Notes under the pieces: model-generated
Told to the model about the DNA's origin: nothing
The model's database searches: none
Seen by the model: the letters and a program-made list of their open reading frames with translations, nothing else
Shown: positions 950 to 64,000 of the stretch, piece by piece
Position numbering within the stretch: position 1 is the stretch's first letter
Layout of the letters: the number at the start of each line of letters is the position of its first letter
NCBI RefSeq assembly: GCF_963675165.1
Contig: NC_087379.1
Location: 3,538,201-3,602,200, forward strand
DNA: 64,000 nt
Source of the DNA: Halichondria panicea
Lineage: Eukaryota > Porifera > Demospongiae > Suberitida > Halichondriidae
Direction: 5' to 3'
Position numbers and translations under genes: made by a program

Positions 950-2450
950 GTTGTAGTCTCTTGACATCAGGTAGGAGATGGAATACGATGGCAAGAGCTG
1001 TCAGTGATTCCCCCTCCCCAATTCTGTAGCGAGAGGATTACATGATTGTATAATAATTATTTAAGAAGTTCCTCGTACACAACGGATACGGTGGCTCGAC
1101 TGGCTGACTCCAATGCTGCCTGCTTGATGATGCATGGGGCCCATTTTCCGTTCCACTCACTTTCTATTTTCGATATTAGAAATCCGTTCTAATCAACTAT
1201 TTGGGAATTAAAGTGCATGTAAAACATACTAGCTAGAAATTCCTTTACCTGTGCGGAGTCTTGCAAAAAAGGATATTTCTTTATATTTCTTTATACTGCT
1301 TTGACCATCACTATTGTCCTCGAGCATCGGTGTTCTACCAGCCATTTCGACTGGACTTACTCCACTCTGCCTGGAGACACCGGTTGTGCCTTTTAAAAGA
1401 AGTATCATCTTCACCTTCTGGTACATCGGGTATTGAAAATGTACCCTTCTCTCTTTTCTTCCGTAACTCCTTGAACCTGTCATTTAAGGTCTTAACAATT
1501 CCACCCTGTATGCAGTATTAAAACTTAACATATGACGCCTCAGTAGCAAGAAATGGGTACTTCGTCACTATCTGCCTGCCAACATTAGCCTTTTCATCAT
1601 GATCTGGGTATTTTTTGTATTGAAACATTGCGGCAGCAATGGATGAAAAGAAGGATTTGTTAGCGGAAGTAGTCATTAAGTTTTTTGGTAATGGAAAGGG
1701 TTCAGGCAACCGTTCATCGTCACTGTCATTGACTAGGTTTGTCTCTTTCTTGACTTCTTCTTTCTTGACTTTTTTCTCGACTAAATCAGACCCACCCTGA
1801 TCAGATTCATCAGAGGTATCATTCTCATAAAAAAAGCTTTTGAACCAAACTGTCATTAAGTGAGTATAGCTGCATGGGGGATAATTTATAAAAAGAAATG
1901 TCACTTACTGTCAACACTTACATTTTGTAGAGTGCGATTGAGGAAGGGTAGGAAGGGCTTGATTGGCATGCCAGAAACGATTCATCAGGTGGTCCACACA
2001 CGTCACCTAGCTACAAGGAAAGACAATTGATGTAATTACTGATAAGTAACAGAATACCACAACAGAATACCACAACGAACCTCATTAGTGTCTTCTGTGT
2101 CTTCTGTTGAACACCTTGAAGTGTCAGTCAGCAAAGGAGATACCACAACGTCCTTGTCGGTATCATCTTCGAGATCTATGTATTCCTCCCACTCTGCGTC
2201 AAAGCGCTGGAATGTGACAGCAATTCTTACATTGTGTGTGTAGTTTTAAAGCACTCCAAAAACTTTCTCTTTAGGAACTCGATGTCTTCTCCTGTTTTCT
2301 CAGGAAGAACAACAGGCTTATTTCTATGAAATGAGAACTCGTCTAGGGTAGCTTCAGTATAGTTTAGGAGATAGCTATAGATGACTTGAGAGCATGGATA
2401 AATTACATGTGGCACACCATGTGATCCATCAAATAACTCCACCCACCCAC
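950..2450 (-). CDS. Multi-exon gene fragment, uncharacterised animal family
   Basis: Read on the minus strand, exon-like blocks lie at about 2442-2227, 2204-2091, 1850-1518, 1500-1229 and perhaps 1180-1080 and 1030-960. The 2204-2091 block follows a TTCCAG acceptor and is acidic (DAEWEEYIDLEDDTD). The 1850-1518 block has an acidic/lysine-rich linker, then FPLPKN, SFFSSIAAAMFQYKKYP and IVTKYPFL. The next block continues GGIVKTLNDRFKELRKKR and, in a shifted frame, CLQAEWSKSSRN. From memory this order matches a family repeated many times in sponge and cnidarian gene sets, often beside SAM-like modules; function unknown. A 9-bp duplication at about 2092-2109 adds one in-frame EDT. Frame changes inside 1229-1500 suggest a decayed or mis-assembled copy. 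Identification is from recall only. Confidence 0.45.
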
Positions 2451-2625
2451 TGCTATTTATTTAGAATAACGAACAGTATAGTGTCTCCTAGTAGTACAGT
2501 TTAACTGCTCAGCTCCTATTAGTTGCACTATCTTCTCCAACACTGAAAGGTGTGCTTCGACATATCGGATCAGTACATTCGTTTGAGCCTAACTTTCACA
2601 TAGAAGACGAAGAAGAAATGGTCAA

Positions 2626-4570
2626 TTGGGTGATGACTCTGACTCTCCAGCAGTTATCAATTTAAAGCGCAGCTCGGCACTGTTTCTGCTGAAGACGAAG
2701 GAAGTAAACAGAGTTACTCAGTCAGCCCTAAATCACATCGTAGAAGGCGTAACAGAACTGTTTCATTCCTTTGCTGGAAGCCCTGAAGTAAGACCCTTTG
2801 AAGGATTGGAGACCCCTTTCTTGCAAGAAAAATTTTTCAGAGAAGAGTTCAATTTATTAACATTATTCTTAGCTTCTTAGCTGTTACCACATCTTTTGTA
2901 ACTCAGAATCCAATTGAACGAAGACTTCAATTGAACGAAGACTTGGCCAAAAACGCAAAAAAGTTAAAGTGAGCTGGCTCTGTACTGGATTCCCTTCGAT
3001 GCATGCTTATTATCGAAGCCCATTATCGAAGCCCAACATTTTGGAAGAGGTGAGGAAGTTTTCTCACCTCTTCAATGTACATAATATACACAAGATGAAT
3101 GATGGCCAACTGGGTGATTATTGTGATGGGGATGCCTGTCTAGCTCATCCGTTATTCTCAACTGATTTAGAAGCTTTACAAATCCTGTCTTCTTTGATCC
3201 ATTGGAAGTTGCGAATCCACTGGGCTCATAATTATACAAAGAAACACAAAATTGGTGAGTATTCTTTCACTGTATAGATACTTTGGCGAACATATCTCCT
3301 CACTGTCGATCCTCTTTGGATATGATTCAACTTTTGGGCGTAGTGAAGTCTGTTGATGTCGCCGCATAATTATGGTGTCGATGAAATTGTGAAGCCAATT
3401 CATGATGGATGTTGCTAAACTAGATTCAGTAGGTGCTTGTATATTGCAACTACCGCATTAAATTCATATAGCATTAAATTCATATAGGATGAAGGGGTGG
3501 ACTTCATTATCGGGGACCATACCTACAACTTTCGAGGATCCCTCCCAGCTGATAACCAATATATTGGTGGTTACAAGGCACTTAATAGAGCTACAAGGAA
3601 ATGTCGGCAATGTAGGCAATGTATGGCAGTGAAGGACGATATGCGACCAAGGTGCGTAACTATACTTGTGAAACAGTGTATTTGTACATTATGCTACTTT
3701 ACTTCCGTTTTTAGCTACAAATTTCAAAGCACGTTCTCGTGTGACACATCAAGAGCACTGTGCTATGCTCGAAAGTGAATGCCCCGAACATGTCGCAACT
3801 ACTTATGGCGATTCAATCCTGAATACATCACTGAATACATCACGTTACTGAAGGGCTACCTCCGGATTGCATGCATGACATTCTTGCATGACATTCTTGA
3901 GGGAACGCTGCAGTTCGAAATCAAGGAACTGCTCAGGTCATTGATTGCTGAAAAACATATCAGTTTGGAAGATGAACTCTTCGCGTATGATCCCTGCAAG
4001 CCCAGTCCTATTTCACTCTCTGAGACAGTCTACTGTTGTTCAGTGTGAAAATTTTGTGTGGCAGCATCTCAGATGTGGTGCCTGGCCCGGTTGCTGCCAC
4101 AGTGACTCTATTCCAGAAGGTGAATGTCATTGGAAGAATTTTTTGCGGCTGTTGAAGATTGTTGATTTGGCCTGTATACTGCTGCCTACCTCACATACCT
4201 CATTGAAGACTATCTGCTAACATTTAAGGAGCTCTTTGCAACATCATACCTAAGCAGCATTACATGGTCCACATTCCCCAATGGTCAGTATGTTTTGTGC
4301 TTCATTGTACATGATCATGTAGGTGTGGGCCGATGACAAGATATTGGTGCATGCGGTTTGAGGCAACCACTTCAAGGATATTTTTGGATCCCCAAATCAA
4401 TAGCATTAAGGCATCAGGGTTAGTCCTGTTATACCAATGCTAGTATTGTAGGAAACGGAAATGCGTTCAGCACTGGCCCAGGTAAAGTGTGTGCATTAAT
4501 TAGAACAACTTTACATTAATGTTTTATACCCTTCTTGCTTCTTGCTGTAGTGAAATCAGTTGAAGTTGAC
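2626..4570 (+). CDS. Transposase-like gene, exons with introns and frame breaks
   Basis: Plus-strand exon blocks: 2626-2860 (FLLKTKEVNRVTQSALNHIV), 2905-2960 (basic, ending QKRKKVK), 2985-3270 (PNILEEVRKFSHLF, then DYCDGDACLAHPLF), 3490-3651 (FRGSL, YIGGYKAL, RKCRQC, donor GTGCGT), 3715-4040 (THQEHCAMLESECPEHV, then MHDILEG, LQFEIKELLR), 4060-4285 (AAYLTYLIEDYLLTFKELF) and 4320-4430 (YWCMRFEATTS). The order, with a CxxC pair before an MHD(I/V)LEG motif and a later WCMRFE motif, is that of a large uncharacterised transposase-like family common in fish and invertebrate genomes (recall, not searched). The N-terminal zinc finger was not found. Four adjacent duplications fall in it: 2911-2944 (17 bp), 3009-3034 (13 bp), 3606-3623 (9 bp, in frame) and 3874-3899 (13 bp). 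The 13-bp ones break the frame in otherwise family-like sequence. Confidence 0.6.
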
Positions 4571-4994
4571 GAACTGCCATAATTATGCTTTACAGTTAAC
4601 AGTTTTGTCTTGCTGTGCCAGCTATTCAGTAAGTGTCAAAGTTACATATTTATATTAAGCCATCCTATTATTTTTGCAGAACCTCCTGGATCAAAATAAC
4701 GTGTCGTCGTCGTCTCCATTGTAGAATCTACCTGTATGCCAGTGTTTGGAAAAATCTTATCCATAGTTTTTTCAGAAGTCACAAAGTGCCACTTTGTTGC
4801 TCGAAACTGACTCGAAACTGACTCTTTTAATCCCCACTTTAATGCTTATGAAGCCAACTCCAATAACTATTTGTTGTCAAACAGACTTAATTGATCATCA
4901 TGTTTTGGCCATGTATCAGGTTTCTAATTTTCATTTGGTACCACTGAAGTATTCTTTACCTGGGTGTATTCTTTACCTGGGTGTTAATTTCATT

Positions 4995-6446
4995 GAAGCA
5001 TAATTTTGTGCTGCAATTCTACACTTCAAGGTAAGTAGTTTAGAGCAGTTTAGAGCAGAATTGAACCAATTGTATTTAGTTGTCAAAGCCTGGTGTAATT
5101 TTTACCAACTACAACCAAAAATTGGAAATTTTGTTTTGATGCTGCCAAAATGGAAATGTCAGTGCATTTGCTTTCCTCTGCATTTGCTTTCCTCACCATA
5201 TTTTTGTGAGTGCATGTATCTATGATAATAATTAAAAGGAGAGTCGTCCCATGTAACCACCAAACTACATCCGATTAGTTTTGTTTATTTCAATATTTAA
5301 CTAGACTCTACTCCGTAACAAAGTAATAAACATTACGAAATGTCAGTGATCGCATTATACACAGGCCCTCCCCTCAATGTCTGAATCAGCCACCCAAGGC
5401 AAAGGTGACGATTTTATAGGTGTGTACTATACTAATTCATGTACTATACTAATTCACAAACTTCCTCACTGCAGTGGCCTTGTATATGAACTACAACAAC
5501 AGGTGAACAATAATATTTGGTGGAACTTGCTAAGTTTAGAGAGGTAAACGCAGCTGGAAGAGTCGTCGACGTTGATGGAATTTGTGACATTTTAAAGGAC
5601 CCTATAACAGGAGTGAACACTTAATATAACAATTGCATGTGTACTACACACATTTGTATGTAGTCTCTTCTGACTTTAAGATTCTAACAATAAATAATTT
5701 TTTTCAAAGTTATGTCTCCAGTAAAAAAAGTCAATAGTTAGGTCAAAATAGCACACTTTCTGTTCTCATCATTAATGCAGTGCATGTGTTTTTGTTGAAA
5801 AGTTGGCATATCATAGACCATAGACAGAGTAGATCTCTATATATGCATAGACCAAATATATGCATAGACCAAGTATATAGTTTTCTTCAGCGTCTTGAAA
5901 CTTGATTTAATCGAGCAGTTCTTAGTTTTTGGACAAATTGTTCACCTGTTGTTGTTAACAAGGCCACGCACACAAGGCCACGCACTGCAGTGAGGAACAA
6001 CAAGCAGTGAGGAACAACAAAAATGTGAATCTAAGACTTAAAGTTGAATACTTATAATACAGTATATATAGTATATTAAACTATCACCTTGGGTGGCTGA
6101 AATTTTCATTGAGGGGAGGGCAGTCAACAGCCTGTGTACAATACATTATGATGATCACTGACATTTCGTAATGTTTATTACTTTGTTACGGAGTAGAATC
6201 TAGTTAATACTGAAAAACTAAAAATACATCGGATGTCTCTTTTTAATTATTATCATACTTCACAAAAATATGGTGAGGAACTGACATTTCCATTTTGGCA
6301 GCATCAAAACAAAATTTCCAATTTCTGCTTGTAGTTATAAAAAATACACCAGGCTCTGACAACTAAATACAATTGGTTTAATTCTGCTCTAAATTACTTA
6401 CCTTGAAGTGTAGAATTGCAGCACAAAATTCCTTTATCTATGCTTC
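4995..6446. mobile_element. Foldback element with arms of about 0.5 kb
   Basis: Left arm 4995-5511 and right arm 5938-6446 are reverse complements with moderate divergence, separated by about 425 bp. Shared landmarks include CTGCAATTCTACACTTCAAG at the outer end, AATTTTGTTTTGATGCTGCC mid-arm and CAACAGGTGAACAAT at the inner end. No coding sequence is evident. Short adjacent duplications occur in one arm only: 5038-5057 and about 5170-5200 and 5425-5457 on the left, about 5958-6020 on the right. Most likely a non-autonomous foldback or MITE-like element; a pair of inverted insertions is the alternative. Confidence 0.7.
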
Positions 6447-7277
6447 AATAATAGTTTTGAAATTTAACTTGAAGTGTGCTTTGTTTAGAGTGGAAATATT
6501 GCATGCAAGCGCATAGTTGTGGTGAGAGTTTACGGCTGCTATTGTGCAAAAGGTATTTCAAATTGGCTGCCTGCTTTATTTTAGTTGCTTTGTATGACTC
6601 AAAACATCATTTTGCAGAGATCAAATTTTTTGTGTAGGTTGCTACTTGGAAGTGACTCACTCGTTAAAGAACAGGCTTTTAGTGCGACGATTATGATTTC
6701 AAGCGAAAAGTAGACGGACAAATCAATAGAAGACTTCATATAGAGCAGTTATAAGCTATCTAAATGGTGTTTTAAACCTCCGCATAAGCTGCTTTCATAA
6801 TTGTACAGTATCAGCTGCAGAGAAGTTGTGGGGGGAGTGGCAACTGTCATGTGATTCTGAGTACTTGACCTCGAAAATTACTGCACTTGCGCAGGCGGCA
6901 ATTATTATTATGTGCAGCTTGCAATTGCAAAATACTATTGTTCAGAGCTAAAGATTCAGTTTATTAATAACAAAAACAGAACATTGATAACAATTATATG
7001 GAACAATTTTTCATCTCTTTGCTAGCATGCTCTCCAGCACTGCACACTCTCCTGCAATACTCCTGGTATCCATTGCACAAGCTTGAAGCAGGTACGTAAG
7101 GTGTATGCATAGAATAAAAGAAAGGAAATGTTATGGGTTTACAAGTTTTACGTCTAAAAAATGTAGCAATAAGAGCAGCTTAGTTCGAGACATTTTAATT
7201 GAATGTGAATGTGAACACTTCAGGGTGTAATCTCTCGTAAGTTAACGTAATTTATAATCCTTCTCACACAGAGCGAC
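6447..7277. other. Non-coding stretch
   Basis: No supported gene. The sequence is mildly AT-rich and contains no strong repeat pair within this window that I can see. It separates the foldback element from the transposon gene that begins near 7278. Confidence 0.3.
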
Positions 7278-10110
7278 ATGTTTACGCCAACAATAGCCCT
7301 CAAGTTTAATTGTGGGTATGCAAGAACTGCGGGAGCTACAAAGAGAGGGACACATGAACGTTGTGTGAATGTGGTAGCACGAAGGAGTGAATTCGAAAAA
7401 CAATTTAGTGACATTGCTCTCCCAGATGATTTGTTTATGGTAGACAGCAAAGGGGAAACCCACTTTGACAAATATTGTAAAAAAGGACCTTAAACAGTTT
7501 TTCGAAAAAATGGAACCCAATGCTAAGGGAAGATTACGAGGCACACTTTTCATCCGAAAACTGGAAAAAGCTTTCTGTTACTGAGAAGAATAAACACTCC
7601 GTTTCAAAGTGCACAGAATGTAGCAGACACCACTTACGTCTTCAAGAGGCGTTCCCAGAACAACCTGTCTTTCAGAGTAGAACCCAGTGTCACCATCCCA
7701 ACCTGAAAGGGATGAAGTTTGCATGGTACTAGGAGATTTAAACGAACAGTGGCAAGAAGGACATGGTCATTCATACCAGCAGTGTACTCTCGAGAATGGC
7801 AAATGAGAATGGCAAATTTAACACAAAAAATATCGAAAGTAAAAAAATAACAACGTGACAGAGCCCAAAAAAGAAAAATCGTGCAACATGTTAGCAAGCA
7901 GATGAGTGAAAACATTTGTTTAACGACGCTAGCTGAAGCTGAAGGGATTCAGCATACAAGCATAAACGCTTTGCGATGTCTTTCGAACTACCTCCAACCC
8001 CTAACAAGAAAATTCAGAGAATCACACATGGAGCCATGAGCATTGCTCCAATCGCATCCCACAGGAGAAACCATCAACTGGTCACAATCAGCAAAACAGC
8101 TACAAATTCCTGGAAAAAATGCAGGTCAAGTATTGAAGGAATATGCGATAAAACAAGGTTTTAATGTGCTAGACATGGAGCAAAAGAGGTCACTTCCTCC
8201 CTAGAACTAAAAAAGAGACTTCCAGGGGGTGAGATATCAACCCCATCCTTACCAACACCTGAAATTATAAATGGGAACTGATTGCTAGCGGCAAACTATC
8301 ATTAGGAGAGCCACGCTCACCTCATATATTGTACATAAATCCACTTGACGGAGACGTAAAAAATGAAGAGGTGGACAGAAAGCTATCATTAATTGAAATA
8401 CGGAAACAAGTACATGCGTTTAATGAGTGACCAGCAAATTCAGCAACTTACGATAGAAGAAATCCGTGAGCTTCTATCCCTCGCACACTGCCTTGTCTCA
8501 CCCAGTACAACTCTTTGTGACCTTCAACACCAACTTGCTGCTCTACAGAGGACACGAACATTAGCATTCTGGCACGACCACTCTACTGTGCTCCAACAAG
8601 GTTATATTCTATTTGCTGTGAAAGTAGTGTATGACAGAGGAGTATTCCTTACAGACAACGAATGGCAAAAAAATGGTGGTTTAACAGCAACAAACATACA
8701 GGAAGAAATAGAACAACCTGTAATACACATGACAGCCCCCAGTACATCAGCACTGTCGGATCAGTTGGCTTTGATATCAGACCGACTGGAATGCCTACAA
8801 GAGCTATCGCATCCAATTATGGACGCTCCTATTGGACGCTCCTATTGCTGACCAAATTCTTTTGTGGAGACAAACCAGCCCAGCAGTTCGAGCGCGGGAC
8901 CCAGGCAGGTGGCACTTACAAATGTGGAATTGTGGGTGCAAGGACAGCCTTATGCAATGCCCTCCAAGATCATTGGAATGTCTACAATCACTCATTCTAA
9001 GAGGTAAATACGGTGGACAAGCAGGAAAACTGTTAGTGGCTGAGTTACGAGACGAACTTAAAGCTAGAGGTTTTGTTACAGCAGCAATGAAGAAGCCCGA
9101 AATGCAAGAACAATTAACAGAACTGCTGAAAGGAGCACAACGGGTCCCTTCACTCCTTGTTCTTAATCCAACTCAATCTCTCAGAGACTTAAACTTAATG
9201 GACTATGAGGTGTTAGATTATGAACCATTACAGTGTCCTTTCAGATCTGAAAGGACACGCCAATAATCTACTCCAAGAGGTCCCGGGATTACTGAAACCA
9301 CCACACACCACACAAAGAAACGATCACCCAAATTATTCAATCCACATTGAAATCTACATCTAGTGGTGTGCAATAATCAAAGTATCTAAAGCTTCTAAAA
9401 CTGAAGGATGTACATGATACGATAAAACAGTTATTAGGTACTCTCGTAAAAATCTCACAGCTGTTGTATTTACCTGATTCAGGTCGAAATCCCAAAACTG
9501 TGTTACAGCTTTACAACGTTACTTGGCTTCATCATGAACGAACTCATCTTGAATCCTACTATCTTGAATCCTACTGCACAAGCTAGGGATAGATTATATG
9601 GGACATATCTTCACGATCTCGCTCCCACCCAGTACCATATGGTTTGCCTACGCTCCACGAACGAGAGCTCAAATCAAACACATTAGCCTACGAGCTACGA
9701 ACAGAAAACCAGACAATGTTTTGACTCCTGAGTATGCAAGCCAGGAGTATGCAAGCTAAAGAGGAGACAGGTACTACTAGTACACTGACAAGTCTACGAA
9801 AACAAGCAACAATGGTTACAGAGGTGGCAAACAAAGTACCACCATACAGTGGAACAATCATTTCACAAGACTTTCTAAAGTCACGCATGTCAACGCATCA
9901 GTCTCTACTTACAAAAAGGAGAAGGTGTATGGTGGGAGACTGTTGGCAACAAATACAAACACCACCATTAAAAGTACGTGGGATCGAAGTAAATCAGCTT
10001 GGAATGCAATTTTGAGATGCAATCCTTCCCACTCCATACATTCGACTATTTAAGGATGACCAGTACATTGGTAGAAGATTATTTCCAGCTGCAACTGAAG
10101 ACAGCCAAAC
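7278..10110 (+). CDS. Transposon-type gene, long and frame-broken
   Basis: Blocks in order on the plus strand: 7278-7490 (FNCGYARTAG, KRGTHERCVNVVARR); about 7720-7800 (VLGDLNEQWQEGHG, YQQCTLENG); about 8070-8240 (INWSQSAKQLQI, GKNAGQVLKEYAIKQGF); 8393-8846 (KYMRLMSDQQIQQLTIEEI); 8847-9240 (GKLLVAELRDELKARGF, VLNPTQSLRDLNLMDYEVLD); 9250-9290 (DLKGHANNLLQEVPGLL); 9430-9540 (LLGTLVKISQLLYLPDSGRN, LQLYNVTWLHHER); 9600-9760 (VCLRSTNE, ISLRATNRKPDNVLTPEYAS); 9790-9960 (VPPYSGTIISQDFLKSRM). From memory this matches a repeated uncharacterised family in sponges and corals. The CLRSTNxE block resembles the catalytic-E region of DDE transposases, which is inference. The 13-bp duplication at 8821-8846 splits one open frame; dropping a copy makes 8393-9240 continuous. 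Other breaks look like ordinary decay. Confidence 0.6.
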
Positions 10111-10171
10111 AACAACTGCAACTATCTTTAATAGCACAATACTGAGCTGGACCCACTAATTTGACATGTGA

Positions 10172-10800
10172 GGGGATCTCAAATTGTTGCAATCATGAGA
10201 AACATGAAGATGACTTTGTTCCACCCAAAAAATGGAGAAGAATCCGTGAAGGGATTTCCCCATGCAGACTCTGCGCAGGTTGTCGCATCTTTATTCTTGA
10301 AGAGCTAAGAAATGTCCAGAGCACAGCGTGCAGCAACTGCACTGAATGACCTGCACGCAACCAAAGAAAAGCAAGAACCACAAAAATTGGGGGGATCTCA
10401 AATTGTTGCAATCATGAGAAACATGATGAGTTTGTTCCACCCAAAAAATGGAGAAGAATCCGTGAAGGGATTTCCCCATGCAGACTCTGCGCAGGTTGTC
10501 GCATCTTTATTCTTGAAGAGCTAAGAGATGTCCAGAGCACAGCGTGCAGCAACTGAAGAAAAGCAAGAACCACAAAAATTGGGGGGATCTCAAATTGTTG
10601 CAATCATGAGAAACATGAAGATGAGTTTGTTCCACCCAAAAAATGGAGAAGAATCCGTGAAGGGATTTCCCCATGCAGACTCTGCGCAGGTTGTCGCATC
10701 TTTATTCTTGAAGAGCTAAGAGATGTCCAGAGCACAGCGTGCAGCAACTGCACTGAATGACCTGCATGCAACCAAAGAAAAGCAAGAACCACAAAAATTG
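10172..10800 (+). repeat. Three tandem units of 192-219 bp
   Basis: Units start with GGGGATCTCAAATTG at 10172, 10391 and 10583 and end near 10800 with CAAGAACCACAAAAATTG. The second unit lacks a segment of about 25 bp present in units 1 and 3. Identity is very high. Unit 1 encodes a cysteine-rich stretch in one frame (CRLCAGCRIF and ACSNC, 10161-10349), which may be the degenerate end of the preceding transposon gene. The other frames opened by the tandem copies are probably not genes. Confidence 0.9.
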
Positions 10801-11289
10801 TTCCGGATCCAAAAAAAGATTCATAAAAAGATTCAACCTATTACAATGTATTATCACAGGCAAACACACAACATGCACACACAAGCCAACAATGACTAAT
10901 TGTGACCTAATCCTAGCTGGGGAGCATAACAGTACAACCAACAAGCCTATTATTGAAAATGTCCTTACACAAGTAAACAGTACACTCAGAACATTATTAT
11001 GCAATCAACTTATTATGCAATCAACCTCTGTACATGTGTACAGTGAGTAGTCAGCCTAATCGAGTAATTTTTCTAGAGTTACTAGTTAGTGTAATAAAGT
11101 TCAATAATTATGTTCACACACCTTAGCTGTCTAGGGGTAGGTAAGTCAGTTTAGCTTCATCTGATTTAGAAACTTCATTAATTACAGTAAATCTCACAAA
11201 ACGTGTCTGATCAAATGACCCAAAAAACTCAAGTAGTACAAAAATCATAAGTATATAGTTCAAAGTTCAAAGTTCCTGACACTCCTCCA
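10801..11289. other. Non-coding stretch
   Basis: No recognisable gene. A 16-bp adjacent duplication ends near 11024 (TTATTATGCAATCAAC twice) and AGTTCAAAGTTCAAAGTTC occurs near 11260. Probably spacer between the transposon gene and the retroelement. Confidence 0.3.
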
Positions 11290-52395: not shown

Positions 52396-54065
52396 ACCTT
52401 CCTCACTCGATCAAGAATTTTTCTTCTTCGTTACTAACATTGTAACTCTCTGGCAAACTTGCTAGAATATACACAACACGATCTTCTTTCTTAAACGAGC
52501 ATGTTGGCTTTATAAGGCGCGGTTAATGACTTCCGCCTGTTGCGGTACAAAAGGCCCATGCCCTGGGCAGACCTTTGACCCCAGCTCCAACATTCAAATA
52601 TCAGTAAACAACTCTCGTTTCTTTTCCCGCTTCATAGCCCGTTCAAACGATATGAACGGCTTTTTATGTTTTTTTTACACAAGTTTTTACACAAGCAAAC
52701 AAAACACATAGCACATAATGGCTGAACAAGCATACCACAGAAGGCCATTACATAAAATGTACATCTATAGGTACGGTACAGCCAGCATCTTCCAGTGCAC
52801 TTTCTGGAGGAGTTCCAGAAGTTGCTTGCGCTGTTCCCTGACCTCACTCTTGCCATCCGAAGGTAACACTGGAAAGTATTCTAGTTCAATAATTATCACG
52901 TGATATGGATGACGATCACTTATTTTTTGCACAGGAGCAAGGACGGTTGGGGTCCTTCGAGGCCTAAGAAAGGTAAATGTCACTAACCTGTACATATGAA
53001 TAAAATGAGTGGTACTTTCCTTAGGTCCCGGAGGGTATGATCCTCCGGTCTTGAACGGAGAGGGTCCCTGTCACAAGGAATATGGTGAAGCGCTTCAAAC
53101 TATACCGCAAGTATTGGACGGATTATAAAGTGACCAAAACCAGTGCACATGACAAGGGGATGCCTGACTGAGTAAGTTTTGCCCACTTTACAGTGCTTTT
53201 CCAGGAGCGATTTCCGAATCCAGATGGACACAGACTTCCAGTCTTCTACTTCTTTTATTGTTTAATTATGTAAAATGTAAATGATTGGCTAGTCAAAATG
53301 TGCACGGATACGTACTTACTTTATATGTCTTCATAAAGCAACTGGTTGCTACAAACTCAATAAAATATAATTATAATTATGTTGCTGCTTCTCCCAGCAC
53401 TCTCCTACGATCCGCGGTCTTCTCATGTCCTGAACCAGTCGTTCACTTGTACACTCTCTACGTACATTCTCGTTCTGAAGTAAACAAATGAATGTACAGT
53501 CACACATACATTATTAGCCAGCATAACGTACCCAGTCCATAATAGCAAGGTTCATTCTCATGTTGAACCCCGAAGCGTTTTGAGATGTATGTGAGCAGCT
53601 GGTGATTGAAAGACTTCTGGAAAGACAACATCATAGGAATAATTAGAAAAAAACCTCACTTGACAATATGATTCGGCATTCTTGTCAATTGCAAGAGGAT
53701 CCTCTACAGGGTGATGCTTTGTTACAATCTGAGTGCTCCTGAGTGCTCGTTCGTACAGAGTACGGACAACTTGTTATCATACACACTCACCTGATAATGT
53801 TTAACAATATTCAGAATGTTCTTTCTGCTGACGACATTAGAACTTTCGTCCTTTTACCTATCGACGAATATTTTTACGTTTGTCAGATAACCACGTCTGC
53901 CTTTTTGGTCCCAATTGCTACTTTCTTATTCTACATTCTTAGTGCCTGAAAATACACGGACACGGTACACAACGGTAGAAGGAAGTTAATTAGCTTTTCC
54001 AGCAGTCTGGGGGACGGAAGTGCACGCCCACTTTACTATAAACTGTGCATGAAAATGATCATTTT
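52396..54065. other. No recognised gene
   Basis: The plus-strand sequence around 53020-53160 (GPEGYDPPVLNGEGP in one frame) looks weakly coding but matches nothing I know. Remaining open frames overlap on both strands. Confidence 0.25.
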
Positions 54066-54350
54066 AGTTGCAACTGTACTGCCATGTGCTTGATCTATTT
54101 ATGCAAGACTGCATGCAAAATTGAAGTTTAGCTATTGAATGATGCACGAGCAAGCGCAGGAGCTACAGCCCACAGAAAACAAGCAGTAAGCAGCCTATAC
54201 CTTAGCTTACTGCATACTGTAGCTTTGTTCACTGAAGGTTGGATTTACTGCTTGTTTTCTGTGGGCTGTAGCTCCTCTCCTGAGTGCATCACTCGTGCAT
54301 CCTTGCATAAATAGATAAGCACATGGCAGTACAGAATGCAGTTGCAACTG
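54066..54350. repeat. Foldback element with 57-bp loop
   Basis: Left arm 54066-54189 and right arm 54245-54350 are reverse complements with indels. They share AGTTGCAACTG, CATGTGCTT, ATCTATTTATGCAAG, GAGCTACAGCCCACAGAAAA and CAAGCAGTAA. Non-coding; a small palindromic MITE is likely. Confidence 0.75.
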
Positions 54351-54539
54351 AAGTTCATGCACATTTGATAGCAAATTGTTTTGAGGAAAATGGAGCTGTC
54401 ACGGTGACTTTGTCCTTCTGGAGTATCTCGTATTCTGTGCAAGCTGCGCTGTGCTCTCGTAGAATTATAATAGTAGGGTAAGGGTATAATGAATTTACAT
54501 TAAAATTTGCATTTGCAATACTCACGGTCTATTGTAATT

Positions 54540-54830
54540 TTTACCTGAGTGCCTCAGGAAACCCAATACTCAGAGGCGAGCGGTCCCACATGCGTATATG
54601 TCCAGATCTTCAAGGATGATGTGATCAAAGTAGACATGATGGTGTAGATTCTTCAAAGAATTTGTCAGATCTCGTTATCCCTTGTTTCTCAGGTGTGCGT
54701 TCCCTCCCAGTACCCAGTATATACTTGCATGCAGTATACCCTTGCATGTTGTAAAAATACCCGTTTTGACTGTCTGCTAGTACCCACACCTTGATTCCTC
54801 TCTTCACAGGTTTGGTACTGCTTCAGTGAG
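54540..54830 (-). pseudogene. piggyBac transposase remnant
   Basis: Minus frame 54807-54625 starts KRGIKVWVLADSQNGYFYNM, the conserved core segment of piggyBac transposases that contains a catalytic aspartate (KVWVLAD). After a frame change it continues DLTNSLKNLHHHVYFDHI, then DIYACGTAR and GFPEAL, matching the following VYFDN...YACGT.R.NR.GFP region with a short deletion. About 90 codons survive. The N-terminal and cysteine-rich C-terminal parts are absent. Confidence 0.75.
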
Positions 54831-57499
54831 CTCGTCAACCTGCAGAACAGCGCTCGGTGATCATGTTGACGAGGGGACGTACCTTACCTATGCGATCGCT
54901 ACCGGGTGTGCCAGGAGTTGGGAGAGTGGTGTTATTAATAGGACACACTCTAGGTCATCTTTAATTATTGTTCAACACTTGCACATGCATGGCCTCCTTT
55001 AGAATGATAAATTCTGTCTCTGAGTTGGGCAATGTTCGTTCTGAGATAGTGCTCGGTTTGGCTTGTATAACCTTTTGTAGTTTTTTCTTCAATGAAGTTA
55101 ATTGGTGAGATTCCAATGATGCTGGACACCGGACATCATTACTAACGGTGGTTAATAGACTCTGAGCATCAGGTGTTGAACCAGGAGCTGAACCTAACAG
55201 CTCCTAAGCGGTGATTCATATCTGTACGTGATTCATATCTGTACCTTGAGCGCTGTACCTTGAGCCTTGTGATTGACCTTCCATGTTTTGACGGAGAGGC
55301 CCCCTTCTTTTCCACTTTTGTCTTAGTCGTTGCTTGACACTGAGCTTCTTTTTTTATCATTATGGTTCTAGTCTGTGTGTAGTGTGTACTGTACAGCGCC
55401 TGGCTTCAACCAACCATAGATAAAACAGATAAAAACGCTTCAACAAAAGATGTTTCTATTTAAATATCACCATAATTAAACGCCCACCACTCGTGGTAAA
55501 GCTCATGAGCTCATGTTGCCTAGCGCCTATATGGATATGAGATAAGTTTAATGTGTGTAATGTGTGTAATGTGTGTCTGCATGTCTGTAGCGTATCCTCT
55601 GTTGTCAGTTACACTTCGTCACTGGGGTGGGGTGTGTTGTGTATGCCAGTTGTCAGTTACACTGGCCTTGGTCAGTGTGTGTGTGTATTTGTGGATCAGT
55701 ACGCACAATGTGTGTACAGAATACAAATGTACATTATTTTTATAATTTGGTTGTACAAATCTTGTGCTCAACTGGACCTGCAAGATAAGTTTAGTGCTGT
55801 AAGGTGTCCTCTGTTGCGAGTGGCCTTGGCCGGTCGACTTGTGACTAGGTCCGCTACTAAAGCTTCGTTGTGCTTCGTTGTCTAATAAAAGCAGAACTTG
55901 CACATATAACTGAACCAAGAACGATGGAACAGGGTCACTGAAGTAGAAAGCAGAAATCTGTAGATATAATATATCAGGACACGGTCATTAAAGTAGAAAG
56001 CTTGAATTATAGCTTGATACCTGGAGCTCTGAGACTTCAGGCTGTGACCCACAGTGTTCTCAAATGTTTCCAGTCTGTGATAACAACATCACCATATGCA
56101 CTGCATTATATTTCTGGTTTCTTTATAATAATAATCACCAGCCGAGGGTCTATATTTCATGGCCAGTAACGCCGTAATTTGGTTGTAGCGTGTAATGCCA
56201 GGATCCTTTCTTGCAAGTGTGTGTGTGTGATTCTTTCTGGCGATTTGATTGATCTGTGGATCTATCAAAAATCCATGAAGTTGTTCCATCGGCCTTCAGG
56301 CTTCAGGCTCTATATTTTCTAGCTTGAGGTAGCTAGCTATGATCCCAGTCACTGTCCTCTCACTCAACAAGGCCATAAGCATCGATATTCTCACTGTCTA
56401 GAGGTTGTACTACGAAGATCTTGAAACATTATCAAATGGTCACGAAGCGTACCTAGATACCACGTTGAAAGAGCAGCTCAATGTGCATGTGCTGGTACCT
56501 ACAGCGCTCCAACACAGCGTGCACACATTTTTGAAAATGACCACTAGAGTGGCCGTCATATGACGCCACAGTCATTAACTACACGAGCTTGTCATAAACT
56601 TCAGGCACCTAGTCGTCGATAAACGTAACAATGTATTTATTTCCACCTATATTTCCGTCATCGGCCTACAATCTCAAGTTTTTTCGATCTGATTTCTCTT
56701 CTCCCACTGGTTTAAACGGGTATCTTTTCATTTTTCCAGCAATACACCGTTCGCAGAATGACGATTTAGGTAAGTTCATACCGGTCGCTAGTTCACTGTT
56801 CGCTTTGACAGATTTTTTCTGTCCAAGTCGAAGTTGTCAAGCGAAGTGACCACCTAGTGCCGCCAATTGGTCTCTTCAGATGCTTCTCAATGCTGGTGCT
56901 CAATGCTGGTGCTTCTCAAGGCTGGAATATTTTCCAAGAAAATATTTTGTTTGCCAACGTATCGTATTTCGTTCAAAATGGCCGCTCAGAGCGCTCAGAG
57001 CAAAGGTTAAAACGCCTTCAGCGAGCGTTTCTGATCCATCTACCACTGACCAAAGCTAGCTCTTGGCTAGCTTCATTTGAAACTTCGTTTCTTCAGCTAC
57101 TCAGCACTGGACAACAGACACTGACAAAAAAACACATGGACAATACATATACACAAAAAATAGAATATCAACTACCTGATTAATTAATTATCTACTTCAC
57201 AAGCTGGAAAGGATTGTAAACCTGTGTGTAGGTGAAGAAAACATTTCCCGGGAAAAGGGATACGAGAACTTCTGCAGATCCTGATTGAACCATGTCACCG
57301 TGAGAACAATGAGGACACTAAGTTTACTTAGTGTCTCTGTGCCCTGTCTCTGTGCCCTCATACATATTATTTGTGCGTAGCTAATTGGTGGGGGTGGTCA
57401 GTTACTAGGTTACAAGTCATTTCAATGTATGGTTCATGATATATGAATTTTTAAAGATTTTATTCTTGTTTTAAGGGAAAGGGTTTCATATTACTTTCA
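54831..57499. other. Long stretch without recognised gene
   Basis: Contains a GTGTGTAAT microsatellite near 55551-55580 and overlapping frames on both strands at 55551-55918, none with a motif. Minus frame 55360-55169 is basic (KTKVEKKGASPSKHGRSITR) and unassigned. Plus frame 56857-57183 is unassigned and contains a 15-bp adjacent duplication near 56886-56915. Confidence 0.3.
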
Positions 57500-58260
57500 T
57501 TATCAGCCAAAGCAGTAGCAGTTTTCTGCAGGCAACTTACTACTGCCAGTCAACCAGCCAAAGCCCCAAGTACCCTTGCTGATTTCCCACCTACCTATAG
57601 CCTGTGTAGTTTGATATTTTCGCATTCGCCTCGCAAAGAAAGATGCATAACTTGGAAAAAGTGACAGTTTTCTTTATTCAACTTCGTAGCAAAGTAGTCG
57701 TTACTGTGTCAGTGGTTTCCAACGGAAAAGTCAACCAGCCAAGGCCAGTGCGATGGATCTGTTTTTAGGGTGTTCTTAGCTGAAAATACGCTTACCTACG
57801 TAGCTTGTAAAGTGTACTGGCAGCGTTTAAAATTATACGCAATGTAAAGTGTAAAATAAATGTTATCAGTGCTCTGCCAAAAGTTATACGGTTACAATTG
57901 AATTATGCTCACTGTACAGAGTATAATAATATTCTGACCTTTTCAGGGGAACTTGTGTAACAGGGGAACTTGTGTAAGGACATTTTCTTCCCAACATAGG
58001 ATTAGGTCACAATTATTTTGTCCTTAGTTGGCTTGTGTGTGTATTCTGTGCCCAAAGTTAAATCTTTTTATGAACTCTATAATTATGTGCCTGAGTGCCA
58101 TTGCTTTGCTTGTGGGAGCCGTGGGAGCCTATACATAATTATGTCTAAGGTTGCATGATTCATAATTATTTGGCACCACTTGTGTATGGCATACTTTGAG
58201 TTAGTGCTGTGTGCTGTGCATTGTCGTAATTCAATTATAAACTATTTATAATTGTGAGAC
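57500..58260 (+). repeat. Dispersed repeat, copy B (copy A at 40.35 kb)
   Basis: Same orientation and order of shared strings as 40350-41110 (CAGTAGCAGTTTTCTGCAGG through GAGTTAGTGCTGTG). It carries its own adjacent duplication at about 57950-57977 (AGGGGAACTTGTGTAA). Confidence 0.7.
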
Positions 58261-58387
58261 CACTATACTAACCACTATACTAACACAATATCATCTATTG
58301 CCAGCTGCTTTCGGTGGATGAATACGTTTGTTGGCCCATTGCCACTCCTATGAATCATAGTGCTCCCATAGTGTAGAACTTTTATCG

Positions 58388-58680
58388 TCAGTTGTCTACG
58401 TCATTGTCGGTTCGGGGGTTCTTGTTATTCTGAAGAAACTTTCTTCGTTCGTACATTCTTCGTTCGTACAATGCGAAAGCAAACATTAGTTTGTCTCTGC
58501 CACTGGTTTGTACGCAATGAGTCTGATGTGTTCTCGCATTTCTGAGCGGCGACAGGAATGGCGACAGTACAATCTGAACATTGTAGTTTGGCAATATCTT
58601 TAGCGTTTGTGACATTCGCTTGTTCGCTTCGCCATACTGCTGTGCCCCCTTTCCATGAGATGTACCGAAAAAATTTCACT
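58388..58680 (-). CDS. Possible zinc-ribbon fragment
   Basis: Minus frame 58679-58425 reads KDIAKLQCSDCTVAIPVAAQ then KCENTS. A C-x2-C followed by AIPVAxxxC resembles the first half of a zinc ribbon found near the end of some transposon proteins (recall). The second half is frame-shifted. A GAATGGCGACAG/GAGCGGCGACAGG near-duplication lies in the middle. Confidence 0.25.
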
Positions 58681-58789
58681 TGATCTTTAGTTCATGCAGA
58701 TGAGTCCATCACTAAAGATGTTGAGGGTTGTCTGAACCAAATCGCCGATCCATGCATATGCAGCCAGTGGGCTGCTCTTTGCCTATCGA

Positions 58790-59177
58790 CTACTTGCGCA
58801 TGCGCCAAATTATTGGATATTTTACCGTACTATAATACTGAATACAGAGTAGCTAGCTAGAGACAGAGCTGTGTAGCTGCTATTTTCTTCTGATAGAATC
58901 AGTAGCAGTAGTATAGTAGACTTTCACATGGCACCTCCTTTCAGACTCTTTTTAACATAGCAGGCTAGTAGGAATGGGCTAGAAACCTTCAATCGAACTT
59001 TCTATCTACTTCCTTCAATCCACTTCCCTTCATTGTTATGTCATAGTTTTACTAAGAATATAATATACGATGTTATCCAAAGCCCCCAGATACCGGGGCG
59101 CATGCGCAGGCAGTCGATACCAGGCCCACTTCCCTAAGTGAAGTGGGAAGTGCGGCCTGGGATCGAGGCTACTACTA
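58790..59177 (+). repeat. Dispersed repeat, copy 2 (partner at 49.7 kb)
   Basis: Second copy of the element at 49731-50160, same orientation, ending GTGCGGCCTGGGATCGAGGC. It includes about 60 bp before the terminus that the other copy lacks. Confidence 0.75.
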
Positions 59178-60305
59178 ACCATCGCATTTTGATTTCAGCG
59201 ATGCTACTTGTCTGCGTTTAACGTAGGCGTCCTCCACTGTCCCCAAGACTTCAACTTTTTCGACTCGGTCATTACTTTGCCATTGGTGATATCGAACTGT
59301 CCTATCGAACTGTCCTCAATATAATTGACTGCTCAGGCAATCTTAGCTTGAGGATCACAGGTAACTTGAGCAATGAAATCTAAGAGGCGGACATTCTCAT
59401 GATAAGACATGATAAGACATACAGTGATATACATACATGATACACATACATGATGACGAATATAGAGTTTAACACTGATTGGTCTCAACTCACAAAAATT
59501 GGTCACCAATTTTGATGTCGGGATGTCAATGACAATAGCATGATGAATTCATCCATCCGTGTGGTTGACACTCCAAATTTCACTACATGGCCTGGTAAAC
59601 GCATGCGCCAGAATTACCGTAAATTGTAGTATATTTATCAGTAGTTGTAAAACATTGATATCTATAATGATTTCATAAACAGTCCAAGTTGTAATGGCTC
59701 TCGTTGGAAAACACAAGCAGCTGGAGTGCCTGTGTTTATGTGGGTACCGCAGCTCTCCCTTTCTAGTGCACTTTTCAAAGTGTTGGTGTAGCTGTTTGAT
59801 CTGGAAGGAGTATTGGTCACAGAGTAAGTACGTGGTATCTCCGAGGAACTTGTCGCCTGGTCGCCTGAGTACTGTACTATCCACATTTATTTTTTACCCA
59901 CAGGTTTAACTAATTTCTTGTGAGATTGACTTGTTGCCTGGAGTGTGTGTATCCCGATCCTGATCCTGGATTAGCTGTCTCTGTCTACAGAGAGGTAGCC
60001 TCGTTTTTCTACGGTAAATAATAAATTAAGCAGTAAATACCAGGCTCACGTCGATCGAGGCTGTGACAAATTAAGGTTACGGTCTAGTGTTTTGCCCACG
60101 CAGTTTAGAGTCACTCATGAATACTACAACAATTGTGTATTCCTCGCACCTTGTAGCACTACAGCAAACTGGGGTACACGTGGCCTACACAGTATATACA
60201 GACAGAGTTCTTTTTTGCTTCCATAGCTAGGTGTGAGAGCTACCACAGTTACCACAGTCTATATATAGAGGATGAAAATCATTGAGTGACGTACAGGTAA
60301 GCAAG
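59178..60305. other. No recognised gene
   Basis: Open frames at 59549-59909 overlap on both strands without motifs. A short AGGCTC...GATCGAGGCT motif near 60040 echoes the dispersed repeat terminus. Confidence 0.3.
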
Positions 60306-60307
60306 TA

Positions 60308-60581
60308 CAGTAGAACCTCGATTATCCGGCTTGGCAGTTTTCTTGTTATCACTGGTCCCTCAAATGCGCATGCGCATTGCAGCTGTTATTGCAGCTGTTA
60401 CCATGGAGACATGCCTGCTTATCGTCGCAGACAACCATGTGGCACTGCTATTTATCAATAAAGTGGGTGGATCAAGGCGTGGTTTATCTATTCAATTATC
60501 CGGCATATTCACTTATCCGGCCTGCTTCTGGATCCGGTCTGCTTCTGGAACCAAGGTGTCCGGATAATCGAGGTTCTACTG
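60308..60581. mobile_element. pogo/Tigger-type MITE with TA target duplication
   Basis: The left end CAGTAGAACCTCGATTATCC (60308-60327) and the right end are perfect 22-bp inverted repeats (right 60560-60581). TA flanks both ends (60306-60307, 60582-60583). The interior of 230 bp repeats the motif TTATCCGG and contains a CAGCTGTTATTG duplication; it has no transposase. CAGTAGAACCTCG-type ends with TA duplication are characteristic of Tigger/pogo families. It could be mobilised by an enzyme such as the one decayed at 17.8-19.1 kb, but ends matching that gene were not seen. Confidence 0.9.
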
Positions 60582-60595
60582 TACCATAATTATAT

Positions 60596-61294
60596 TTATG
60601 TCCTTGATGATCTAGTATTTGTTACTGTCCAGAGTGGGATGTAGGTAGAGATGGCACCTATTCCTAATCTAGGACTAGGACAAGCAAGCTCAGGCAGTAG
60701 AGCATCTTGATAAAAAGCGTTCAGTCTGTTGGTAAATTCCATCTGTCCTGACAACAAAATCGCACTACTCGTTGTTCGTACAATATAGCTGGCACTGGAT
60801 TTGATAATAGTAGTCGTGTTGCTGATATGTTTGTTCTTTTTCAGGTGAACCACTGTGACAGGCCTCAGACAACGTCATACTTCTCTTAGTGAAAGGGTTT
60901 TTTATTTCAAGTATCCCTTTTGTTTGGTCACTGGGATCTTGGACTATACCGTTGCCGCTAACCATGGGTTGTCAAGAGAAACGGAAAGACCACAGTCTAT
61001 TTGTGTGCACTTAGTTCTTTACTGGTGAGCAGTGTCCGTGCTCCATCTCCATTCCATATCTGGTAGCGTTATTCCCACGAAACGTATTATAGATTTACTT
61101 TGTTTGCTCATTTTCAGTATCACCTTTGATGCTGTTAGCCGCTTCTTTCTTTCTTTTCGCCATCTATCGTTTCCAGCTTGTTCTTTCGTTGTGTTTTCTA
61201 TTTCTATTGCCTCTTCTTTAGAAATCTTTAGAAACAGCAACATTAACATTAGCTTCGTAATGTAGCTTCGTAATGCAACAGGAGGTGATTGCAA
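60596..61294 (-). CDS. YqaJ-type exonuclease domain protein, frame-broken
   Basis: Minus strand. 61270-61080 reads ISKEEAIEIENTTKEQAGND, then WRKERKKRLTASKV. 60965-60770 reads GIVQDPSDQTKGILEIKNPF, SLSEAC-like TLSEACHSG and DYYYQIQCQLYCTNN, then 60780-60640 VRTTSSAILLSG. This order (E-x-x-T-x-x-Q...W...R..RLTAS, D...GxLExKxP, YYxQxQxQL) is that of the YqaJ viral-recombinase-type nuclease family, with the acidic and lysine residues of ExK visible. In animals such genes are usually transposon-associated. A 10-bp near-duplication at about 61214-61234 lies near the start; the aspartate region reads SGNG in place of the usual SPDG. Confidence 0.65.
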
Positions 61295-62009
61295 TTTATA
61301 TTACTATTTCAGATTACTATTTCAGATCACAAAAAGTCTGATGTTAATGTTAAGGTTACGGTAAACCGTTTGCTCATTAATTATAGATCCAGCTAGAATG
61401 AGCTAGAAGTCCAGCTGAAATGCAGTTGCAGTCTACTGTAGCTGAACTATATGCAGGGTAGAGATGTTAAAAAAAAGGGCTACTGAAAGCTCACAAGACG
61501 TCTGTCATCACAAGACGTCTGTCAGCCATTTTAACTCCTGGTAAGAGTATTTTTGGAAGCATAAAATGACTACTGGTTTGTGTTACATAATTATATAGAA
61601 GATTGGTTTAAGGTTCAAGAAAAAGAGTTAACATGTACCAAAGCTTCGCAAGAATACAGAACCCCATACATCTTGGAAAAGTAATAGCGATGTCACATGT
61701 TGACACGAATGGCAGTCTGTCTTGGTATTAGTAAATCATTAGTAAATCGAATCATTGGCTACTGGAATCTTAGACGACCCAGTTAAGAATTGCAGAATGT
61801 GAGGGAGGGTGACATCATTTCGATCTGTAGGACAATAATTATAATATCAAGTTTGGCATGATGGCTACATGACATTGTGTTATTTTCCTATTTCCTATTT
61901 TTCTATACATACACATGGCATGCCACCACTATAATTATATCTGGTGCTAACCTTTGCATTCAGTCGGACCATGAGTATACACGGACCATGAGTATACACT
62001 TCTTTGTGC
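61295..62009. other. Non-coding stretch
   Basis: No gene recognised. Adjacent duplications at about 61484-61513 (TCACAAGACGTCTGTCA) and near 61733-61750 and 61965-61997. Confidence 0.3.
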
Positions 62010-62600
62010 GGCCATTGTCAGAGTACACTAGATAGTCAGGCGTCACATCAAAACTACTCGATGAAGCATGTAGACCCCAAATGCTGTCGCGGTACATTGT
62101 AATCAAACCATTCATTTCCAAAGTGTCGACAATACCCTTCTTGAGTATGGAATAAATCGTTATGTAGCCAAACAGCAGTTGGTCTTTGTCTTTGAGGGTT
62201 ACTTGACAGGTTGGTTTTGCATAACCGCTAGTAAATAATCATTGGTTCTGAAAACTTGCTGTAGCTGAGCAAACCTGAAATTAAAACATAGCGTCCCAGT
62301 ACTTGCCTGTTTGAGACAACGTAGACTCTGCCAAACACAATGAAGTCGGCAACAGCCTTTTTCCAACAAGGTAGAATTTGTTGTCTGCCAGTGCTTGTAC
62401 ATTCATCAACACTAACTCGAATGAGCTTTTTGACACAGAAAGAATGCTTAGAGACATGAAGTGCTTAGAGACATGAATGTCGTATGTTTATCCTTTGATA
62501 TCCTTCCTCATCAACATCATACAGAACTCGTTTCTGGTGCTGTAGCAAGATATGTTTTACCTCAAATGCTACGAGGAGCTGTAAGTAAGAAAATTGAGCA
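62010..62600 (-). CDS. Unassigned coding-like segment
   Basis: Minus frame about 62240-62010, open for some 75 codons, reads KDKDQLLFGYITIYSILKKG, then TLEMNGLITMYRDSIWGLHA and FDVTPDYLVYSDNGRTKK. Just upstream, about 62390-62290, NKFYLVGKRLLPTSLCLAES and TGKYWDAM appear in another frame. Further up, 62590-62480 reads LQLLVAFEVKHILLQHQKRV. Composition is clearly protein-like, but I do not recognise the family. A 16-bp adjacent duplication at about 62447-62478 sits between the last two parts. It may be one gene, read leftwards, broken by indels. Confidence 0.35.
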
Positions 62601-62741
62601 TGTGACGCATACTTTTTTTTTTTTTTGGGAGTAAACAACACCTTTATGGTGGAAGCAAGTAAATAATAGTATAATAAAAAATAATAAAACAAAGAACAGT
62701 GTATGTAAAATAGTGTGTACATGAGGTGAACAGTTAGTTTG

Positions 62742-64000
62742 TTAGTTTTGCTGCAAGCTGGCCTCTGCTATAACCAGGTCCACAGGTGACATCTTCATAG
62801 CGTGGCCTCTTGATGAACGAGCGCCACGTATGCATTGAATGGCGGACCTGAGCAGGCTGAAAGAGAGGGAGCATCTCAGCCAGTACAGGGTGGTGCTGTA
62901 GGGTTGGTCCCATTTCTCTGCTAGCAGGGAGGCCAGTCGTTTGTAGAAGTTTGTAGCTTGTTTTGAAAGGCTGCCAGTCGCAGACATCACAATGGGGACG
63001 AAAGTAGCATGCTCCACTTCTCTCACCCTTTGTCCGTATGCACGGATCTTTTCCCTCTCGTGCTTTCTGAAGCATTGGTCTAGGGTTGTGTTGCGATTTG
63101 AGGGAGCAAAAGGGTTGAAGACTCTGACGTCCATCAGGGTTCTCTCGCGTCTGCCTCCCCAGAGACCACTGGCAGCAACATCAAGCCTAGCACCTATGGT
63201 GGTATTTGCGCTTCTCCCGGACATGGTCTCTGTGGTGATCTCCTGAAGCTCTGGTTCAATTTGCACATCATTGCATACTTCAGTTAAGAGTCTCGCTGTT
63301 AAATCTCTTATTTCATTGTGACGCAGGGAAGGAAACCCACCGCGTGGGCAAGAAAGTATATGATCCACAACAAACGCAGCGCCACAGGCACAGTGTGTGG
63401 GGGTCTTGATGGGTGTCCAGCCGTAGCGTAGGGCCATGGGCCATGGCATCAACGGCACCCTTGTGGAGACAGAAGCCATGTTTCTTGATTGGCAGAGAAG
63501 TCAGCCAGCTCGAGGCACCTGATTGGCTTGCGAGGTCCATAGCTTTAGAGAGCTCAGGGGTTACTTCCTCTTGTAGGGTGGATGCAGCTTGCGTCATGTG
63601 CTCCCTTCGGTCACGCTGGATCTCGCGTTTGGCAGTTATCTGGTCCGCAAAGCCAGGTGGGTTCACTACCCCTTAGGTTTATCAGAGGGGTGGTGATCTT
63701 GATGGAAGCATTGAATTCGTCCTCTGAGCGGGAGGAGGCGTCTGGTATTCCTAATCCACCTAGCCTTGCGGGTAGTGCCAGCAATTTTCTCATAGAGTCG
63801 TTTGGTGGTGGATGACCCGTGATGAATGGTAAAAATTCAGAGCGGATAGTGTCCTCTAGACGCATACTTTTTACACCTCTCATTTTTTGACAGATCGACA
63901 GATCGATGTCTGGCAAGTCACTGAGGTCACTGAGGTCACTGTCACTCTCTGAATCCATCTTCGTCAAGCCCCACATACGTAGCTCACAATAAGATTATCT
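62742..64000 (-). mobile_element. Retroelement polyprotein C-terminus, restriction-like endonuclease type
   Basis: Minus strand, cut by the window's right end. 63976-63690 holds an acidic repeat (SDLSDLSDL) and LLALPARLGGLGIPDAS. 63660-63445 holds TAKREIQRDRREHMTQAAST and SWLTSLPIKKHGFCLHKGAV. 63430-62742 is a single open frame: LRYGWTPIKTPTHCACGAAF, DHILSCPRGGFPSLRHNEIR, ARLDVAASGLWGGRRERTLM then DVRVFNP, and SFSLLRSAIQCIRGARSS. The CxC...H...C cluster followed by a D...DVRV core suggests a zinc-anchored restriction-like endonuclease following an RT, as in R2-like elements (inference). The upstream RT is outside the window. A 7-bp duplication at 63431-63444 causes the frame change within the conserved region; a second break lies near 63670. 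Confidence 0.7.

Follow-up and report, generated by a model that had tools for sequence, protein, structure and literature searches.

The window analysed here is a 64,000-base stretch (C3:3538201-3602200) of the genome assembly of the sponge Halichondria panicea (131.5 Mb in 39 contigs, of which C1-C17 measure 5.7-18.1 Mb each), which carries copies of two repeat families (A and B), two young repeats, transposon remains and minisatellites, and in which short stretches of DNA are immediately repeated once at a high density. Exact maximal adjacent pairs with primitive repeat units were counted, and an order-4 Markov sequence of 234 kb, scaled to 64 kb, was used as the randomised background.

Short adjacent duplications in the window

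Exact pairs with units of 9-17 bp numbered 115, compared with approximately 0.5 in the Markov control, and 112 of them were left once low-complexity and multi-copy cases had been removed. The original prediction had claimed many short adjacent duplications and a near absence of long ones; the excess is stronger than claimed, and all nine of the examples quoted there were recovered, with maximal matches differing from the quoted ends by at most two bases. For the shortest units, the window contained 89 pairs of 5 bp, 58 of 6 bp, 24 of 7 bp and 12 of 8 bp, against Markov expectations of about 60, 18, 5 and 1.7, respectively. The counts then ran 17 (9 bp), 8 (10 bp), 15 (11 bp), 9 (12 bp), 20 (13 bp), 6 (14 bp), 8 (15 bp), 7 (16 bp) and 25 (17 bp), and fell to one pair of 18 bp and one of 20 bp, the latter being part of a minisatellite, while no exact adjacent pair was found for units of 21-200 bp. 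This sharp ceiling is equally visible when six further hot (duplication-dense) loci are added to the window, where the drop from 17 to 18 bp is from 35 pairs to 1. The features of the window are as follows (quoted marks the nine earlier examples; L numbers denote loci compared elsewhere in the genome):

1..64000, part of a zone dense in exact 9-17 bp pairs, which extends at least 130 kb beyond the right end and fades within 130 kb of the left end
2911..2944, 17-bp duplication (quoted)
3009..3035, 13-bp duplication (quoted)
3872..3899, 13-bp duplication (quoted)
4949..4984, 17-bp duplication
5002..6634, copy of repeat family B, holding six duplications of 9-17 bp and numerous short deletions
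5423..5456, 17-bp duplication
5839..5872, 17-bp duplication
5987..6020, 17-bp duplication; L035 has a single unit
8820..8847, 13-bp duplication (quoted)
12720..15229, minus strand, remains resembling a retrotransposon, related to L025 (C8) and holding five duplications of 9-17 bp
13769..13802, 17-bp duplication; L025 has a single unit
14607..14640, 17-bp duplication; L025 has a single unit
14993..15027, 17-bp duplication
16847..16881, 17-bp duplication
17536..17570, 17-bp duplication
18959..18981, 11-bp duplication (quoted)
24150..24183, 17-bp duplication
24840..24873, 17-bp duplication
25524..25557, 17-bp duplication
32221..32254, 17-bp duplication (quoted)
34737..34764, 14-bp duplication (quoted)
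36511..36545, 17-bp duplication
37421..38186, copy of repeat family A; against L046 (C1) 2.3% substitutions and 198 of 927 reference bases deleted
38636..38670, 17-bp duplication
41700..41733, 17-bp duplication (quoted)
41909..41940, 16-bp duplication (quoted)
42235..42268, 17-bp duplication
45176..45879, young repeat, 97-98% identical to 39 listed copies elsewhere, with one 9-bp pair
47688..47722, 17-bp duplication
48718..48751, 17-bp duplication
50989..51022, 17-bp duplication
55211..55244, 17-bp duplication
57944..57977, 17-bp duplication
61491..61524, 17-bp duplication
61965..61999, 17-bp duplication
62613..63861, young repeat, best copies elsewhere 97-98% identical, with no 9-17 bp pair

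Alignment to other copies of the same repeats indicates that the duplicated state is derived from a single unit. Twenty-one window pairs (units of at least 8 bp) could be aligned in this way, and in eight of them (starting at 5037, 5163, 5958, 5987, 13769, 14607, 38126 and 60376) the unit is clearly single in the other copy, the remaining 13 lying in gapped alignments that are less decisive; none of the aligned repeat copies has an exact 9-17 bp pair at the corresponding place. Adjacent 17-bp pairs in the window carry 0, 1, 2 or 3 mismatches in 25, 5, 3 and 1 cases, and mismatched pairs of this kind are what ageing of duplications should produce. If pairs had formed at a steady rate since 2.5% divergence, 67% of the 17-bp pairs would still be exact, and 25 of 34 were observed. 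Between one and six pairs of 9-17 bp occur in each of six older repeat stretches of the window. The two young inserts hold one in 1.95 kb, and this 9-bp pair seems to be the element's own, given the near-equal length of the listed copies. Since 3.4 pairs were expected there at the window density (chance of none about 3%, of at most one about 15%), the young inserts are weak evidence on age.

Several other elements lie in the window. Minisatellites of 2-4 copies occupy 10172-10800 (unit about 195 bp), 26345-26497 (about 73 bp), 26901-27222 (about 87 bp), 30214-30438 (about 70 bp) and 39786-39904 (about 59 bp). Transposon remains were detected at 18034-18925 (minus strand; DDE_1 and HTH_Tnp_Tc5 domains), which we take to be pogo-like, at 15528-16148 (minus strand; DUF1758 domain), presumably BEL/Pao-like, and at 32474-32872 (plus strand; a Phage_integrase match below the cut-off). 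The reading frame at 62745-63500 (minus strand) has no named domain in the precomputed list; of 2,906 candidates, 2,281 are relatives at E <= 0.001, and some of the 120 listed are named as Halichondria panicea proteins. Copies of family B (on C8, C10, C1 and C3 besides 5002-6634) give matches on both strands, which means that the element contains long inverted parts. An Rfam scan at the gathering threshold and a tRNA scan of the window gave no match.

Companion deletions

Deletions of characteristic size accompany the duplications in the repeat families. In family A, they were polarised against L046 on C1, a reference chosen for its intact appearance. Substitutions relative to it amount to 2.3-3.9% in nine other copies, each of which nevertheless carries 7-16 insertions or deletions (indels) of at least 5 bp, and most of these events are private to one copy. 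Among the 130 unique deletion events of all sizes in families A and B, 29 were shorter than 7 bp, followed by 13 of 7 bp, 12 of 8 bp, 25 of 9 bp, 5 of 10 bp, 2 of 11 bp, 3 of 12 bp, none of 13-14 bp, 2 of 15 bp, 4 of 16 bp, 6 of 17 bp, 10 of 18 bp, 3 each of 19 and 20 bp, 2 of 21 bp, 7 of 25-28 bp together, and one each of 30, 37, 40 and 67 bp. By class, there are 55 at 7-10 bp, 5 at 11-14 bp and 22 at 15-18 bp, with maxima at 9 and 16-18 bp; the second hump reaches significance (22 vs 5, p 0.0008), and a third does not (7 at 25-28 bp vs 2 at 21-24 bp, p 0.09). The pooled set of cleanly flanked deletions, to which two unpolarised comparisons contribute, contained 35 of 9 bp and again none of 13-14 bp. 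A period of 9 (R 0.55) and one of 10-10.5 (R 0.58-0.59) fit the sizes about equally well and are therefore inseparable. Microhomology of 0, 1 and 2 bases was found at 23, 21 and 16 deletions, compared with 37, 19 and 7 for random placement, which is an excess of 1-2 bases.

Cut-and-paste elements make target-site duplications, changes of which leave adjacent exact copies as well as losses of the 9-bp type, so that transposon excision footprints, with target-site copies left or lost, could resemble both signatures. The units, however, spread over 7-17 bp instead of having one length, the deletions fall into two or more size classes, and no edge motif was found, which makes this origin very improbable.

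Regional concentration and the indel to substitution ratio

The original prediction had also described the duplications as indifferent to context; as regards place, this does not hold at the genome scale. Counted after the same removal of low-complexity and multi-copy cases, 9-17 bp pairs reach 1.75/kb in the window (112 in 64 kb) but only about one eleventh of that density in 17 control stretches from the 1.0-Mb position of C1-C17 (28 in 170 kb, 0.16/kb; three are of 17 bp). To the right of the window on C3, 10-kb samples contained 17 pairs at +30 kb and 16 at +130 kb (1.7 and 1.6/kb), and to the left 4 at -30 kb and none at -130 kb (0.4 and 0/kb), so that the density falls from 1.75/kb to zero across about 200 kb within one assembly. 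A second zone at 3.65-3.80 Mb of C8 had 15 pairs in 11.7 kb (1.3/kb), and the high density is thus regionally restricted on C3 and C8. Small samples gave 2 pairs in 3.5 kb on C9, 1 in 1.5 kb on C12 and 0 in 1.5 kb on C14; seven central or subcentral family A copies had 4 in 5.8 kb, and none was present in four repeat copies elsewhere (5.6 kb) or in three loci on C4 and C1 (9.3 kb). Units of 18-40 bp are rare throughout (one in the window, two at C3 +130 kb, six in the controls). The high zone densities, together with a low but nonzero control density, show that the process is regional but not exclusive.

The positions of family A copies suggest that the hot zones are pericentromeric, and the zone of the window may be a centromere or its surroundings. 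Family A matches of at most 77% identity (about two dozen main ones; 40 of 1,539 candidates scored) occupy one interval on each of 11 chromosomes, several of which have a single such copy. The intervals lie mostly near the chromosome middle, that of C6 being near one end and that of C2 spread over 1.2 Mb.

Hot loci also have more indels for a given divergence. In alignable pairs with 0.3-6% substitutions, indels of at least 5 bp per substitution amounted to 658/892 (0.74) in 47 hot-hot pairs, 184/358 (0.51) in 18 hot-cold pairs and 49/272 (0.18) in 16 cold-cold pairs. These are small samples of non-independent locus pairs with sequences in common; seven of the family A copies were chosen in part for their position and low identity, the hot class contains two loci with few duplicated pairs (L033 and L038), and L022 was counted as cold. 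Six pairs involving loci in neither class gave 33/77, the window's own pairs with cold loci 94/165 (sum of eight comparisons), and a smaller polarised set 139/257 vs 11/74 (p 3e-5). A uniform mutation process, with the zones just retaining older DNA and the arms being young or under selection, would agree with the similar gap sizes in cold-cold pairs (24 at 7-10 bp, 2 at 11-14 bp and 7 at 15-20 bp) and with the 17-bp pairs in the controls. It is considered unlikely because the indel to substitution ratio is approximately fourfold higher in hot pairs at similar substitution levels, subject to the small samples, shared sequences and partly low-identity picks of that comparison.

These regional patterns bear directly on the explanation offered by the original prediction, which preferred the view that overlapping ends of neighbouring assembly pieces had been joined without collapse and named fill-in of staggered breaks as an alternative. 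Joined assembly ends would account for the sharp upper size limit and the mostly exact copies, but not for a density that is regional within one assembly, for size-structured deletions in the same zones, for imperfect 17-bp pairs or for an indel excess that tracks hot and not cold copies; moreover, there is no N among the 64,000 bases of the window. Judged from the sequence alone, this part of the proposal is therefore extremely improbable, whereas the fill-in part fits best. An origin of the window as a foreign segment was rejected, as the same repeat families are present on other chromosomes at 2-4% substitutions.

Break repair as a possible origin, and known systems

The duplications are best explained, judging from the sequence comparisons, as real, inherited changes in Halichondria panicea. 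We consider it probable (roughly 0.6) that they arose from staggered breaks that were filled in, or trimmed in the case of the deletions, and then end-joined, with a concentration in chromosome zones that are possibly pericentromeric. Double-strand breaks with short staggered ends would arise often in these zones and would be mended by end joining; filling in of both overhangs before joining would leave the overhang sequence twice (at most 17 bp), and trimming of the ends would lead to sequence loss and to the deletions of about 9 and 18 bp. Suppression of homologous repair in pericentromeric DNA might send breaks to end joining. In the 17-bp class, 22 of 35 pairs (window and six hot loci) had no run-on of identity past the unit, compared with about 55% expected by random placement, and such chance-level run-on implies no excess of microhomology. 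Exact adjacent copies without additional microhomology are the product expected of two-overhang fill-in followed by joining.

The nature of a length ruler is less clear. Cuts on one helix face would favour staggers of 10n-3 (7 and 17) in one polarity and of 10n+3 (13) in the other, and the eukaryotic primase RNA primer is about 9 nt long, a length for which the literature search returned no paper. The ruler might thus reflect cuts confined to one helix face with a 10n-3 stagger, giving 7 and 17 bp, or the loss, as the overhangs are filled in, of an RNA primer of primase size (about 9 nt). The former is weakened by the near absence of the 13-bp class outside the window and by the equally good fit of period 9, and the latter would suit the deletion sizes, although primase edges were unseen in 17-bp units. 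The likeness of the 9- and 18-bp deletions to such a primer would also speak for replication slippage or faulty handling of lagging-strand RNA primers; however, the 17-bp pairs lack excess microhomology, the two periods fit about equally, and slippage offers no reason for the regional limit, so that it is quite improbable. Two edge patterns were rejected. In 17-bp units, a weak symmetric preference for a purine as base 8 and a pyrimidine as base 10 (0.76 in 23 units without run-on, family-wise p 0.008) was not repeated in 13 units with run-on (0.53). A primase start rule for natural units (purine first, pyrimidine last), derived here from PMC8355091, does not hold in the 17-bp class, in which about half of the units begin with a purine and about a third end with a pyrimidine.

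Several observations weigh against the fill-in and end-joining reading. No cut-site motif that held up was found at the duplication edges. In the 13-bp class, a run-on of 1-3 bases occurred in 17 of 21 pairs and none in 4, which could reflect two kinds of ends, and this class is nearly missing outside the window (1/51 vs 20/114, p 0.004): there are 20 such pairs in the window and one in 33 kb of L021, L023, L025, L026, L028 and L034, where 12- and 14-bp pairs are commoner. Both L022 (C3:3398201-3408200, the -130 kb sample) and L033 (C9:3013301-3015300) have 7-10 bp deletions without any 9-17 bp duplication, which means that duplications and deletions are not found together throughout; the deletions may extend further than the duplications. 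In addition, cold copies have the same deletion sizes at a lower rate, which points to a part of the process being genome-wide; the signature may thus be genome-wide and intensified in zones.

A bolder and rather doubtful extension is that a break-and-join process with a built-in ruler wears down central zones, adding up to 17 bp and removing DNA in steps of 9-10 bp. The family A and family B copies of the window, as inserted transposons, have lost 15-21% of their length (about 267 of some 1,800 bases in family B) and gained only 2-3% substitutions. If true, the extension would amount to a novel type of regional indel hypermutation by which (peri)centromeric DNA is renewed. The regional limit, the 17-bp ceiling and the stepped deletions would be new if the fill-in and end-joining reading holds; it would then tie a mutation signature to chromosome zones and provide, in an early-branching animal, a natural, heritable record of staggered-break repair in which the lengths are defined sharply enough for tests of enzyme geometry. 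On that reading, clean adjacent duplications in a chromosome-level assembly are not necessarily errors.

No description of such a zone, including centromeres with short tandem duplications, was found in the open-licence literature, but related systems are known. According to PMC8355091 and PMC5730883, small tandem duplications at 3'-overhang breaks in mouse cells depend on Ku80, CST and Pol alpha-primase, whereas those made by Pol theta are larger and contain much microhomology; a requirement for Ku80 and ligase 4 is among the criteria of the end-joining class. The sponge duplications resemble those of staggered-break end joining in being exact adjacent copies of unique sequence, with deletions as the other outcome and, in the 17-bp but not the 13-bp class, with little microhomology. 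Unlike them, in which size follows the experimenter's nick distance, they are natural and zonal, with a 17-bp ceiling and stepped deletions, and, unlike the products expected of CST/Pol alpha-primase fill-in, the 17-bp class lacks purine/pyrimidine edges. Short tandem duplications that occur naturally in the rice and human genomes (Vaughn and Bennetzen 2014; Messer and Arndt 2007, cited in PMC5730883) are likewise germline events, ascribed there to nearby nicks on opposite strands, but the citing passages name neither a regional concentration nor a length ruler. According to PMC12918824, SPO11 double-cut microdeletions in mouse mutants, with peaks near 30 and 60 bp and smaller ones near 13 and 21 bp, are similar in arising by germline end joining and in having size classes related to helical turns, and they differ from the sponge deletions, which peak at 9 and 16-18 bp and have no event at 13-14 bp.

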